Notes under the pieces: model-generated
What the model saw: the letters and a program-made list of their open reading frames with translations, nothing else
Databases searched by the model: none
What the model was told of the DNA's origin: nothing
In this document: piece after piece, positions 4,283-13,788 of the stretch
Numbering within the stretch: position 1 is the first letter of the stretch
Layout of the letters: each line of letters begins with the position of its first letter
Program-made: the position numbers and the translations under genes
Source: Halopseudomonas sabulinigri
GTDB lineage: Bacteria > Pseudomonadota > Gammaproteobacteria > Pseudomonadales > Pseudomonadaceae
Direction of reading: 5' to 3'
DNA length: 64,000 nt
NCBI GenBank assembly: GCA_011053055.1
Contig: DRHT01000051.1
Location: 1 to 64,000, forward strand

Positions 4283-4521
4283 GAATGGCGCCTTGAGATA
4301 AAACCTGACTAAATGGACAGACTTGTCTCAAGACAACAGCAAGAAGAGTGCCATCACTCTGCCACCTGCATTTCCGGTATTCGCGCTGAAAGCGCCGCAC
4401 CAGAGCGGTGCTAGGCTCGCTATCGACGAGCCAAAATGCAGCTTCTTTGTGATGGAAGACCGTGTGACGGACAATCGTAAAGTGCCCCATGAATGCAAGG
4501 TCCAACAGTCATTCGCGCCAC

Positions 4522-9616: not shown

Positions 9617-11395
9617 TTAAAGGGGCAGCGACACGTAGAACTGCGCGCCATGCCCCAGCTTGGACTGCACGCCGATATGCCCACCGTGCAGTTGCACAAT
9701 TTCTCTGCACAACGCCAGCCCCAAGCCAGCACCGCCTTTTTTGCCACCTACTTGCACAAACGGCTCAAACACGCGGCCCTGCTGACTGAAAGCGATACCT
9801 TCGCCGTTGTCTTCCACACTCAATAAAATACGTTCGCCCTGCCGGCGGGCTTGCAGGCGTACATTGCCATCGGTAGGCGTATGCCGCAACGCATTGCCCA
9901 GCAGGTTATCGAGCACGCGCTCAATCTGCAGACGATCCCATCGCGCGTGGGGCATCTCGTCGTGTATATCCACCTCAAGGTTGATATTCAACTCACGCGC
10001 CTGCACCGCAAAGCGTGCCGCAGCTTGAGCTACCAACTCACCGGGATCACAGGGTGTAAGCTCCAATTTTTGCAGGCCGTTCTGATAACGCGAGAAGTTC
10101 AGTAGGTCATTGATCAGGTCAACCAGACGGCGCATTTCTTCGTCTACGACAACCAGTAAATCGGACTCGCGGCTGCCTTGCGCGAAACTGGCACGCTCTT
10201 GAAATAACGAAAACGCCATGTGCATTCCAGTAACCGGAGTACGCAGTTCGTGTGAAGCGCGTAATACAAACTCTCGACGCACGCGCTCAAAAGCGCGCTC
10301 ATCCGTCACGTCGCGCAATACCATAACAGCACCCTGCACCCAGGTGTCGGTGCGCAGCACCGGAGTCAGGCTGTAGTCCAACAGGCGCATCTCGCCAGCC
10401 ACCTTAACTTGCAGATCTTCCTGCTCGCTACTACTGTGCGGGTTGCCGGCGAGTACGTCGCGTACCTGCTCATCCAACTCAGGCCGGCCCATAGCAACGC
10501 CTAAGCTTTGACCTAGCTCGCGCGAGTCCCAATCCAGTTGCCGGCGAGCTACCGGGTTAAAGTGCTCTACTTCTCCATCCTGGTCCAGAATCAGCAGACC
10601 GTCATCAATACTGTCGAGCACAGCCTGCAAGCGGCGCTGTTCGCCTTGCAGTGCATTCACGTCGCTACTTTTGAATTCACGCAGCGCTTCAGCCATTGCG
10701 CCGAAGCGCCGACTAAGCGCTGAAATCTCCAACACTGGCGATATCGGCAGCAGAACGTTGAAATCACCGGTACTAATCTGATCGGCAGCCCGCGCCAAGC
10801 CCTCAATAGGCTGGGCGAAGCGCCTAGCGATGCTGTTAGCCGTGAGCAAACCCAATAACAATACGGCGAGGCCAATCAAGCCAAGCAAACCTGCAATCAA
10901 CCACGCGCGCTGGTGGGCAGCAGCTTCAGCCCTTTTTACTTTGTCGATGTAACGATTTTGAATTTCGTTCAGCCGGTCGCGGATGATCGAAACCTTGCTG
11001 CTGAAGATATCATTGGACAGCAGCTCACGACGCAAGGTCATTGGCCGCCGCAAGATAACGTCATAACTGGCGTAGGTCGTTTCCAGCTCCGCCATCGCGA
11101 TACGATCAGACTCGGCTACTGCGTGCGTTTTAGCTACTGACAGAGACTGTTTAAAACGCGCGTCCGATGCTTTGAGATCCTCTAGATTAAGGTCTTCTTT
11201 CAGCAGCATGGTCACCTGCGTACCTATTTCCTGCCGCATCGCCAGGGTTGATTTGATGATGTTCAACGTACTGTTCATAGACAGTTTTTGCGATTGAGTC
11301 AGACTCAACACGCCAAACATGCCCACCACCAACCCCACCATCGCCACGGTAATCAGTGCGCTGCTGCTAAGAAACAGTTGCGTGCGTAGCTTCAT
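9617..11395 (-). CDS. kinB: Sensor histidine kinase/phosphatase KinB
   Basis: 592 residues, the length of P. aeruginosa KinB. Two membrane helices (about 10-32 and 165-187) flank a periplasmic helical region. A HAMP region (about 188-240), a PAS domain (about 250-370) with the FNPVARRQLDW motif, and the HisKA domain with His382 in ASHELRTP follow. The ATPase domain ends with DNGEGIAF and GGAGLGLALCREIVQLHGG. In P. aeruginosa KinB acts mainly as an AlgB phosphatase that restrains alginate production and stress responses; the same role is inferred here. Its ATG overlaps the algB stop by 4 bases, so the two form one operon. Confidence 0.92.
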   Translation of the reverse strand: MKLRTQLFLSSSALITVAMVGLVVGMFGVLSLTQSQKLSMNSTLNIIKSTLAMRQEIGTQVTMLLKEDLNLEDLKASDARFKQSLSVAKTHAVAESDRIAMAELETTYASYDVILRRPMTLRRELLSNDIFSSKVSIIRDRLNEIQNRYIDKVKRAEAAAHQRAWLIAGLLGLIGLAVLLLGLLTANSIARRFAQPIEGLARAADQISTGDFNVLLPISPVLEISALSRRFGAMAEALREFKSSDVNALQGEQRRLQAVLDSIDDGLLILDQDGEVEHFNPVARRQLDWDSRELGQSLGVAMGRPELDEQVRDVLAGNPHSSSEQEDLQVKVAGEMRLLDYSLTPVLRTDTWVQGAVMVLRDVTDERAFERVRREFVLRASHELRTPVTGMHMAFSLFQERASFAQGSRESDLLVVVDEEMRRLVDLINDLLNFSRYQNGLQKLELTPCDPGELVAQAAARFAVQARELNINLEVDIHDEMPHARWDRLQIERVLDNLLGNALRHTPTDGNVRLQARRQGERILLSVEDNGEGIAFSQQGRVFEPFVQVGGKKGGAGLGLALCREIVQLHGGHIGVQSKLGHGAQFYVSLPL

Positions 11396-12738
11396 AACCC
11401 GAGCTGCTTTCTTTTGCGGTAAAGCGTGGAAGCATCAATGCCTAGCGTCTTGGCAGCTTGGTCGAGCGTCGAGCTAGAGCCCAGTACCGCAGCAATGTGG
11501 GCTTTCTCAAGTTCTTCAAGACTCAGCTCAGAGCCGACCCGGGGCGCGCCGCTGTTGCTCTCAGCAGCACTCAGCCCTAAGTGAGCAACTTGCACCAGCT
11601 CTTCACCACAAATGATGCTGGCACGCTCAATCACGTTGCGTAGCTCACGGATATTGCCTGGCCAGTTGTAGCTGAGCATAGCGTCTCGGGCCTCGACGCT
11701 GAAGCCAGTGGCTGGGCGCGCATAGTCTTTTACGAAACTGGCAAGAAAGCGTTCCGCCAGGGTCATAATATCGTCATGTCGTTCGCGCAGCGGCGGCAAC
11801 ATCAGGGTAATGACGTTCAAGCGGTACAATAGATCTTCGCGGAAACGGCCACTTTTGACCATTTCTCCTAAATCCAGATTGGTTGCTGCGAGAATGCGCA
11901 CATCGGCGCGGCGGGTGACCGGGTCGCCAACGCGTTCGTATTCTTTATCTTGAATGAAGCGCAGCAGCTTAGGCTGCAAAGTCAGTGGGAAGTCGCCAAT
12001 TTCATCAAGAAAAAGCGTGCCGCCATCGGCCTGGTTAACCCGGCCTAGGGTGTTCTCACTAGCCCCAGTGAAGGCGCCCTTACTGTGACCAAACAGCTCG
12101 CTTTCCATCAGCTCAGCAGTGAGCGAAGGGCAATTGATGGTCACGCACCCTTTCTTGGCGCGCTTACTCCAACCATGAATAACCCGAGATAATTCACCTT
12201 TGCCGGTACCCGACTCGCCCAGAATCAAAATATTGGCATCCGTCACCGCTACCTGCCGCGCCGTTTCCAGAACCGCCATCATCGCTGGGCTTTGTGAATC
12301 GACCTTGGCTTGCGTTTGCTTTACTTCGCCCTCCAGCACTTCCAGCCGCGCCGCCATCTGACGCATTTCCAGCTGTTTGGTAGCCGCCATACGTAATTGG
12401 TCTGGACTGCAGGGCTTGACTAGATAGTCAGAAGCGCCGGCCTGCATAGCATCCACTGCGGTATCTACTGCGGAATGTGCGGTGACTATCACTACGCGCA
12501 TCCACGGCGCTATTACGCGCATCTTCGCCATCACATCCAGACCGTTGTCCTCACCCAGGCGCAGATCGAGAAAGCACAGGTCGAATACTTGGGTGTGTAG
12601 CACAGACTCAGCCTGCAAAGCCGTAGCTGCGGTAGCAACGTGATACCCCTCATCCTCAAGACAATAACGAAAGGTTCTAAGGATTGCTGGCTCATCGTCC
12701 ACCAACAAAATCCGCCCTTTGGTCTGTGCTGCTTCCAT
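11392..12738 (-). CDS. algB: NtrC-family response regulator AlgB
   Basis: 448 residues with full-length similarity to Pseudomonas AlgB. The receiver domain has Asp58 as phosphoacceptor (CFLDLRLGEDNG) and Lys108. The AAA+ domain has Walker A GESGTGKGE (174-182), the sigma-54 contact loop GAFTGA (221-226) and the GTLFLDEIGDFP Walker B region. A Fis-type helix-turn-helix lies at the C terminus (STLDQAAKTLGIDASTLYRKR). AlgB controls alginate and quorum-sensing-linked genes in P. aeruginosa. Because the GAFTGA loop is intact, this protein should be able to drive sigma-54 promoters; one lies just upstream, pointing the other way. Confidence 0.94.
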   Translation of the reverse strand: MEAAQTKGRILLVDDEPAILRTFRYCLEDEGYHVATAATALQAESVLHTQVFDLCFLDLRLGEDNGLDVMAKMRVIAPWMRVVIVTAHSAVDTAVDAMQAGASDYLVKPCSPDQLRMAATKQLEMRQMAARLEVLEGEVKQTQAKVDSQSPAMMAVLETARQVAVTDANILILGESGTGKGELSRVIHGWSKRAKKGCVTINCPSLTAELMESELFGHSKGAFTGASENTLGRVNQADGGTLFLDEIGDFPLTLQPKLLRFIQDKEYERVGDPVTRRADVRILAATNLDLGEMVKSGRFREDLLYRLNVITLMLPPLRERHDDIMTLAERFLASFVKDYARPATGFSVEARDAMLSYNWPGNIRELRNVIERASIICGEELVQVAHLGLSAAESNSGAPRVGSELSLEELEKAHIAAVLGSSSTLDQAAKTLGIDASTLYRKRKQLGL

Positions 12739-12788
12739 TTTTTCGTCTGCTCCAGACTTGATATGAGGTGTTAGTCAACGCTTCTTCG

Positions 12789-12830
12789 TGCAAGTTGCAT
12801 GACGCCAATGCGGCAATCTTGCAACTTGCA
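12789..12830. promoter_or_regulatory. Two copies of a TGCAA-N-TTGCA dyad: candidate upstream activator sites
   Basis: TGCAAGTTGCA at 12789-12799 and TGCAACTTGCA at 12820-12830 are each 5+1+5 dyads; together they also form a larger inverted repeat. Their centres are 31 bases apart, three helical turns on one face. They lie 66-107 bases upstream of the sigma-54 -24 element and 51 bases from the algB start. This is the expected place for the binding sites of an NtrC-type activator, most simply AlgB itself. Confidence 0.6.
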
Positions 12831-12855
12831 CTTTGGCTCACGCAAGAAATATTTT

Positions 12856-12868
12856 TATGTTATTGATT
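12856..12868 (-). promoter_or_regulatory. IHF-like site
   Basis: On the minus strand the sequence is AATCAATAACATA, one mismatch from the IHF consensus WATCAANNNNTTR. It lies in an AT-rich stretch between the TGCAA dyads and the sigma-54 promoter, where a DNA bend would bring an activator to the polymerase. Confidence 0.45.
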
Positions 12869-12895
12869 ATTAAGGTTTTTATTTATAAAAATAAC

Positions 12896-12910
12896 TGGCA
12901 CAGCTGTTGC
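12896..12910 (+). promoter_or_regulatory. Sigma-54 (RpoN) promoter for the BON-domain gene
   Basis: TGGCAC-AGCTG-TTGC matches the -24/-12 consensus (TGGCAC-N5-TTGC) at every defined position. It lies 73 bases upstream of the chosen BON-gene start. Confidence 0.88.
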
Positions 12911-12982
12911 TCTGTCTTCCTATGAATAAGTCATGGCCCAAATCGCCGGCCTTGATAAGGACATTGAATGGAGATTGATCCC

Positions 12983-13414
12983 ATGCACAGCATCAACCGC
13001 ACGGCTCTGCTTGCACTCTCAATCAGCTTCGCCAGTTTGCTGCCTCTTGCCGCTCACGCGGACGGAAGCGACAGCAAAAGCCGTCCTATGCCCACAGAGC
13101 AACGCAAAGATCAGAGCCAACCCTTTGATGATGATCGAGTTCTGACGGCTACCCTGCAGTCGCGATTGCAGTGGGATGGTAACACGGACGGTATAAGCAT
13201 TCGGGTGGCGGCACAGGACGGTGTAGTGAACTTAAGTGGCAACGTACTGCACACTAATGACAAGCGTATTGCCATCGCAACGGCACGCAACACGCCCGGT
13301 GTTCGGGCCATTAATGCGAGCGAGTTGAAAGTCGGGCGCACCTCTACGTTAGACGAAGCGCGCTGGATAACTACCAGTGTTGTTACGGATCGCGGCCCAA
13401 CTCTGCGTCTGTGA
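12983..13414 (+). CDS. Periplasmic BON-domain protein
   Basis: 143 residues. A signal peptide (MHSINRTALLALSISFASLLPLAAHA, cleavage near 26) is followed by a charged linker and one BON domain (about 55-118): LQWDGNTDGISIRVAAQDGVVNLSGNV, then AIATARNTPGVRAINASELKV. BON proteins such as OsmY are periplasmic stress proteins that associate with membranes. The ATG at 12983 is preferred over the one at 12968 because GGAG lies nine bases before it and it gives a normal signal peptide. The perfect sigma-54 promoter upstream and the divergent algB gene suggest AlgB-dependent expression (inference). Confidence 0.82.
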   Translation: MHSINRTALLALSISFASLLPLAAHADGSDSKSRPMPTEQRKDQSQPFDDDRVLTATLQSRLQWDGNTDGISIRVAAQDGVVNLSGNVLHTNDKRIAIATARNTPGVRAINASELKVGRTSTLDEARWITTSVVTDRGPTLRL

Positions 13415-13602
13415 GCCACTACCTTGATTTAATTTTACTACTGGATCTCCACCGCACTTTTACTTTCGATGACGGACGACAACACATGAACATGGAGCAA
13501 AAGCCGGCTATCTACTTCCATATTAAGGAAGCCACCCTGCCCGGCGCGATCGAGTGTATGAGTAGCCAGTCCGGTAGCACCGCACACTTTAGGAGGCACC
13601 CC

Positions 13603-13788
13603 TTGCTTAACTGGGCAATCGCGTTTTTCGTCATGACGGCCGCTGCCGCGGTATTTACTTTTGGTGGTTTTGGCACCACTGCAGCCGTAATGGGCCAAGC
13701 GCTTTTCGGTATTTTTCTGCTAATGCTGATCGGTACTATGTTGTTGAGCAAGTATCGCCGGACTGGCCCGCCACATTCCAGGCGTTGA
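13603..13788 (+). CDS. DUF1328 small membrane protein, TTG start
   Basis: 61 residues with two hydrophobic helices, reading (M)LNWAIAFFVMTAAAAVFTFGG then AVMGQALFGIFLLMLIGTMLL. This is the standard layout of DUF1328 (YtjA-like) proteins, which are 50-60 residues long and stress-associated. The open frame runs from 13411, but a perfect AGGAGG six bases before the TTG at 13603 sets the start, and the TTG aligns with the family start. It follows the BON gene by 188 bases and may be co-transcribed from the sigma-54 promoter. Confidence 0.75.
   Translation: MLNWAIAFFVMTAAAAVFTFGGFGTTAAVMGQALFGIFLLMLIGTMLLSKYRRTGPPHSRR

Follow-up and report, generated by a model that had tools for sequence, protein, structure and literature searches.

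A predicted AlgB-controlled enhancer, IHF and sigma-54 promoter module between algB and a BON-domain gene of Halopseudomonas sabulinigri

Described systems and the algB-BON intergenic region

NtrC-class activators drive promoters of the nif, psp and TOL Pu type, in which an enhancer, IHF and sigma-54 act together, and the IHF and sigma-54 consensus patterns used here are the generally known ones. The stretch described below resembles these promoters in having paired palindromic upstream sites, a -24/-12 promoter and an IHF site between the two, but departs from nif, psp and Pu in the sequence of its dyads, in a nearly fixed spacing found together with AlgB and KinB, and in the genes it precedes in the family, which encode BON, DUF3509, DUF2383 and small -WVF proteins. 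Judged from its sequence, the module appears to be a further example of the known enhancer/IHF/sigma-54 kind of promoter, here with AlgB-type dyads.

In Pseudomonas aeruginosa, KinB and AlgB have roles in alginate production, quorum-sensing-controlled behaviour and the response to light (PMC6932827, PMC13001231, PMC6979010). The pair encoded here is alike in its KinB sensor domain and in an NtrC-type AlgB with a GAFTGA loop, but the P. aeruginosa roles described in the accessible sections of those reports do not include BON/OsmY genes. AlgB of P. aeruginosa is reported to bind the algD promoter directly and to act in alginate production without phosphorylation (PMC6979010), so AlgB may use other sites as well. 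A motif atlas of P. aeruginosa predicts AlgB targets (PMC8041468), and its supplements probably include an AlgB motif. We found no link between AlgB and BON/OsmY genes, no AlgB regulon or box and no -WVF gene beside algB in the accessible parts of the open-access literature, although the motif, or single targets, may have been described before.

The window, i.e. the whole stretch of DNA analysed (64,000 nt), contains an intergenic region at 12739-12982 that parts algB on the minus strand from a BON gene on the plus strand (Table 1). The initial annotation had placed here two dyads 31 bases apart, an IHF-like site and a TGGCAC-N5-TTGC promoter in that order, with the first dyad 51 bases from the algB start codon, and all of these were found at those places. 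The promoter pattern is matched exactly at 12896-12910 with its GG and GC correctly spaced, and the spacer between it and dyad 2, which contains the IHF-like site, is A/T-rich. The AlgB GAFTGA loop, claimed to be intact, is indeed present alongside the receiver, AAA+ and HTH_8 domains. The identity of the KinB/AlgB pair is confirmed by the adjacency of kinB to algB and by domain content, including the Pfam KinB_sensor domain; the AlgB C-terminus STLYRKRK was present in all 20 AlgB sequences recovered from the 23 loci tried. The genome also has the sigma-54 gene rpoN (PF04552, E 4.1e-71). If the C of the -12 GC is taken as position -12, transcription would start near 12922, which would centre dyad 1 at about -128 and dyad 2 at about -97 and put the IHF site near -60.

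Table 1. Features of the algB-BON region, with coordinates in the window
Feature	Position	Strand	Details
kinB, sensor kinase	9620..11395	-	KinB_sensor, HAMP, PAS, HisKA, HATPase_c; PF16767 E 1.9e-20
algB, NtrC-type response regulator	11392..12738	-	receiver, AAA+ with GAFTGA, HTH_8 (Fis-type HTH)
dyad 1, TGCAAGTTGCA, putative AlgB site	12789..12799	.	51 bp from algB start codon (12738)
dyad 2, TGCAACTTGCA, putative AlgB site	12820..12830	.	31 bp start to start from dyad 1
IHF-like site, TATGTTATTGATT	12856..12868	-	consensus YAANNNNTTGATW, one mismatch; 25 nt after dyad 2
sigma-54 -24/-12 type promoter, TGGCACAGCTGTTGCT	12896..12911	+	76 bp past dyad 2 start
BON-domain protein, 143 aa, signal-like N-terminus	12983..13414	+	PF04972 E 2.8e-12
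~100-aa membrane protein, C-terminal half DUF1328/UPF0391-like	13486..13788	+	NCBIfam PRK13682.2-4 E 1.5e-12, below cut-off

Two gene details depart from the initial annotation: the BON start is better set at the ATG preceded by GGAG and 9 bases (Table 1), and the gene called DUF1328 is probably the 100-aa frame, whose family match lies below cut-off. The C-terminal 61 aa of this frame match no Pfam family at E 0.001, and NCBIfam PRK13682 only under its cut-offs; the protein is probably longer than the usual DUF1328 protein. Its N-terminal extension resembles that of close relatives (G105, G035, G046). Elsewhere in the window, a second exact match to TGGCAC-N5-TTGC lies at 4339-4353 on the minus strand, with no exact dyad pair there; the number of these matches is at chance level.

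We consider it very probable that this stretch is an enhancer-IHF-sigma54 promoter under the control of the neighbouring KinB/AlgB system. AlgB dimers would bind the two TGCAANTTGCA palindromes, which are three helical turns apart, IHF would bend the A/T-rich spacer, and the AlgB oligomer would then contact RNA polymerase-sigma54 at the -24/-12 element and open the promoter by ATP hydrolysis, resulting in transcription of the BON gene and probably of the DUF1328-like gene. The initial annotation had proposed just such activation of both genes, and the proposal gains support from the conservation of the dyads in relatives and from their tracking of AlgB and KinB. The sequences show this conservation and tracking, the anatomy and geometry of the module and one case of its joint absence with algB; the binding of AlgB and IHF, the dependence on sigma-54, the direction of regulation and the co-transcription of the second gene are inferred.

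Uniqueness, conservation and geometry of the module

Taken singly, the elements occur in the window about as often as expected by chance, both for dyads (5 found versus 5.1 expected) and for -24/-12 elements (8 versus 9.0), each with at most one mismatch, so that the information lies in their order alone. In the 3.8 Mb genome there is a single exact copy of the pair, taken as two TGCA-N3-TGCA motifs 31 bp apart, and no match to its reversed control pattern; allowing two mismatches brings the pair to three sites and leaves the control at zero. A genome-wide search for the motif before -24/-12 promoters, which had been suggested as a check, thus gave one further good site, at C32:45325, with one mismatch and TGGCACAGCCCCTGCA at a similar spacing (78 bp from the nearer dyad start to TGG, versus 76). 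The genes behind this site encode, first, a triple-BON protein of 276 aa (Pfam E 1.9e-54) and, next, a DUF2383 protein. The third-best pair (G000:C25:3859, two mismatches) was rejected as chance, since it falls inside a long open frame and 300 bp around it contain no promoter at up to two mismatches. Two promoters of this kind are therefore recognisable in this organism at up to two mismatches in the pair, both before BON proteins; more divergent sites would be missed. The same module before the triple-BON (OsmY-like) gene would give AlgB a small envelope regulon.

We examined 119 genomes of the family, including the source of the window, and scored AlgB as a match at E <= 1e-120. AlgB was found in 82 genomes, 79 of which also have KinB_sensor, and KinB_sensor never occurs without AlgB. 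A pair with up to one mismatch is present somewhere in 77 of the 119 genomes, comprising 74 of the 79 with AlgB and KinB versus 3 of the 40 others, and the control pattern in none of the 119; the association is strong with genomes counted without phylogenetic correction (Fisher p 8e-22). The three pair-bearing genomes outside the AlgB+KinB set have no promoter (at most two mismatches) within ~260 bp of the pair, which lies in or near long open stretches. Three of the five exceptions within the set (G004, G098, G112) do have a pair with a promoter, but its spacing is 32 rather than 31 bp, and a fourth (G036) has a pair with two mismatches. In the fifth (G088), an exact dyad stands by itself no more than 700 bp from algB, and the one candidate module, at greater distance, is weak. 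At four loci with two-mismatch sites in genomes lacking algB or KinB (L274, L281, L282, L285), no promoter was seen at the usual distance, the one two-mismatch promoter element among them being at 223 bp.

Conservation of the dyads upstream of algB in related species had been set as a check, with their absence in relatives counting as refutation, and the outcome did not refute the proposal. All AlgB+KinB genomes (79/79), versus 0/3 genomes with AlgB only, have a TGCAANTTGCA dyad with up to one mismatch no further than 300 bp from the algB start, and the same test ~1 kb away gave 3/82. The module, defined as a pair at 31 or 32 bp with at most two mismatches in all and a promoter with at most two, stands beside algB in 73 of the 79 genomes and in none of the three with AlgB but no KinB; the other 6 have no recognisable module beside algB. 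The three KinB-less genomes (G017, G044, G056; L338-L340, L372-L374) have no dyads near algB either. An altered recognition helix is not supported as the cause of motif loss, as the helix of their AlgB is nearly unchanged (one Q to H in one of the three), and the helix alone is thus no predictor of the motif. At two loci (L143 at 1245 and 1676; L142 at 264 and 1679) two pairs stand in tandem near algB, which suggests local duplication.

The geometry was assessed at loci L038-L154 (part of the listed sites plus some algB loci), which were picked for the pair and not for the promoter and give 119 distinct pair sites when relatives, however close, and overlapping registers are counted individually. 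At 75 of these sites a -24/-12 element with at most one mismatch lies 70-84 bp from the nearer dyad start. Over ~260 bp to both sides, no element of this stringency falls outside 62-91 bp; the distances peak chiefly at 75-78 bp and to a lesser degree at 65-67 bp, one helical turn shorter. In the other 44 the 70-84 bp interval contains no promoter with up to one mismatch, and some of these sites have a two-mismatch element. The promoter spacing in relatives is thus helix-phased, as is the 31-bp pair with its three turns. Among 185 modules, 163 have a spacing of 76-78, a figure biased by loci from L155 onward, which were chosen for that spacing. The IHF site also keeps to a narrow place: of 150 non-redundant modules (spacing 75-79, drawn from all loci and including some selected by promoter spacing), 131 match YAANNNNTTGATW with at most one mismatch at an offset of 23-28 past dyad 2, versus 1.1 expected when spacers are shuffled, and 5/7 short-spaced modules match it at offset 25. 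The IHF-like site of the window sits at the same conserved offset.

Probable assignment to AlgB and alternative readings

The dyads might serve another sigma-54 activator that uses the algB intergenic region, for which the genome offers nine further AlgB-like matches at E up to 1e-20. We regard this as improbable on two grounds. The dyad is found before algB in every AlgB+KinB genome, and four algB-less genomes (G074, G100, G095, G032) have no pair with at most one mismatch despite keeping 7, 21, 13 and 13 enhancer-binding-protein matches, respectively. None of these is an orthologue of AlgB, since even the best reach no more than 41-44% identity to it. This supports the view that the motif tracks AlgB and KinB rather than enhancer-binding proteins generally. 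A scan of 84,980 species genomes for the pair and promoter pattern gave at least 119 stretches, and among the 80 listed by name, 78 are from Pseudomonas, Stutzerimonas or Pseudomonadaceae and the other two (labelled as a Pantoea sp. and a gammaproteobacterial MAG) have 77-93% DNA identity to Pseudomonas loci of this set; the family sampled here is taken to be Pseudomonadaceae from these names.

A single genus provides one case of joint absence of module and algB. G016 (algB and kinB present) and G032 (both absent; completeness 100) have a common BON locus with a conserved upstream gene, presumably pnp, the upstream and BON genes being 87% and 82% identical in DNA sequence. At this locus the G016 sequence carries a dyad pair with a 32-bp spacing, followed 76 bp past dyad 2 by TGGCATGCCGCTTGCG. 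For G032 the alignment shows gaps at dyad 1 and over most of the spacer, what remains of dyad 2 and of the promoter is substituted, and the BON gene has no upstream dyad at up to one mismatch. No triple-BON relative was found in G074 and G100, which precluded the comparison there.

Alternatively, the dyads could be operators for algB alone, with the BON promoter using another activator or being vestigial. The arrangement of dyads at algB lends this some weight: in 55 of the 79 AlgB+KinB genomes the pair includes the algB-proximal dyad, while 19 keep a lone dyad 50-122 bp away from the start of algB, 18 of these within 50-76 bp, with the pair more distant. The remaining 5 are without a module, this search having reached 200 bp further than the one that left six. 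Nevertheless, pair, IHF site and promoter keep their helix-phased spacing at many genes distant from algB, and restriction of the dyads to algB is highly improbable. The lone dyads instead suggest that the proximal dyad has a role of its own at algB, strengthening the earlier idea of autoregulation, and in H. sabulinigri the algB-proximal dyad probably regulates algB itself. A chance arrangement of short motifs, each at chance frequency in the window, is hardly credible in view of the conservation and the control counts for uniqueness, spacing, IHF offset and proximal dyad; it is uniqueness together with conservation in relatives that makes the arrangement decisive. Most likely, then, AlgB acts with IHF to activate the module-bearing genes via sigma-54.

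Predicted target genes in relatives and a possible route to AlgW

We collected 206 non-redundant modules from all loci (less than 80% identical; pair with at most one mismatch, promoter with at most two) and classified the genes behind them by tblastn (E <= 1e-3) within 700 bp. The predicted targets comprise 77 BON genes, 38 DUF3509 genes, 20 DUF2383 genes, 37 small frames ending W-x-F (versus 0 in the control), 1 hemerythrin gene and 21 unclassified; these counts are no rates, given an unevenly composed sample in which some loci had been chosen by promoter spacing. The remaining modules precede two small-protein families, and in one of these the 21 members read divide into 11 with a -WVF or -WIF tail and 10 with -LVF or -LIF. 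AlgB, long studied as a regulator, thereby gains a predicted site arrangement and, family-wide, a predicted regulon of BON/OsmY-type envelope, DUF3509, DUF2383 and small -WVF proteins. DUF3509, of unknown function (e.g. L072, L105, L116), is the second commonest gene behind an AlgB-type module in the sample.

The -WVF tails recall the MucE/AlgW system. In P. aeruginosa, MucE activates AlgW through its C-terminal -WVF, as does a truncated pilin ending -FTF, and AlgW then cleaves MucA and frees AlgU (PMC3684759, PMC3819740). As in that system, a small envelope protein with C-terminal -WVF lies behind many AlgB-type modules in relatives. However, mucE is AlgU-dependent in P. aeruginosa (PMC3684759, PMC3819740), whereas the -WVF genes of the relatives lie behind sigma-54/AlgB-type modules, often beside algB, and, by eye, differ between genera over most of their sequence. 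Their products have hydrophobic N-termini, appear by eye to be exported and are strongly divergent with the tail kept. Proteins ending in -WVF, -WTF, -WIF and -LVF are found behind AlgB-type modules at L042, L056, L064, L095, L097 and other loci. Within 1.5 kb of algB, which was located by tblastn, 46 of the 82 neighbourhoods contain a frame of 40-170 aa ending W-x-F, a module being present in 42 of these, and the reverse-strand control gave 0 of 82; 33 of the 79 AlgB+KinB genomes, including that of the window, have no such frame in this interval.

From their tails, the small -WVF-type proteins are possible AlgW ligands. We lean towards a reading in which, in much of the family, KinB/AlgB and sigma-54 switch on exported -WVF (-LVF, -WIF, -WTF) peptides that would dock to the AlgW PDZ domain, trigger MucA cleavage and release AlgU. 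RseA_N (MucA-type) proteins were found in all 11 genomes tested, that of the window among them. KinB restrains AlgW-dependent MucA proteolysis in P. aeruginosa, with RpoN involved partly via algW expression, and the accessible sections of these reports name no AlgW ligand made by AlgB (PMC13001231, PMC6979010, PMC3684759). RpoN-dependent transcription of algW, which has been published (PMC3684759, PMC3750012), could explain the link without a peptide. Induction of a peptide ligand by AlgB, if true, would provide a molecular link from KinB/AlgB/RpoN to AlgW-dependent MucA proteolysis, with a two-component system signalling to the envelope-stress sigma factor by making the ligand of its protease, and it makes the gap between KinB/RpoN and AlgW activation testable. 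It also fits the reported case of Azotobacter vinelandii, in which AlgB occurs without KinB or MucE and algB is dispensable for alginate (PMC6979010). The three KinB-less genomes of our set are similar in lacking dyads, modules and W-x-F frames near algB.

This reading does not apply to the gene in the window, where the BON protein ends in -GPTLRL and the DUF1328-like protein in -PHSRR; the algB-adjacent target in the clade of the window is a BON envelope protein. At L082, two small-protein paralogues, the first ending in -WTF and the second in -FTF, the AlgW-activating tail of the truncated pilin, stand in tandem (1967-2197 and 2765-2995).
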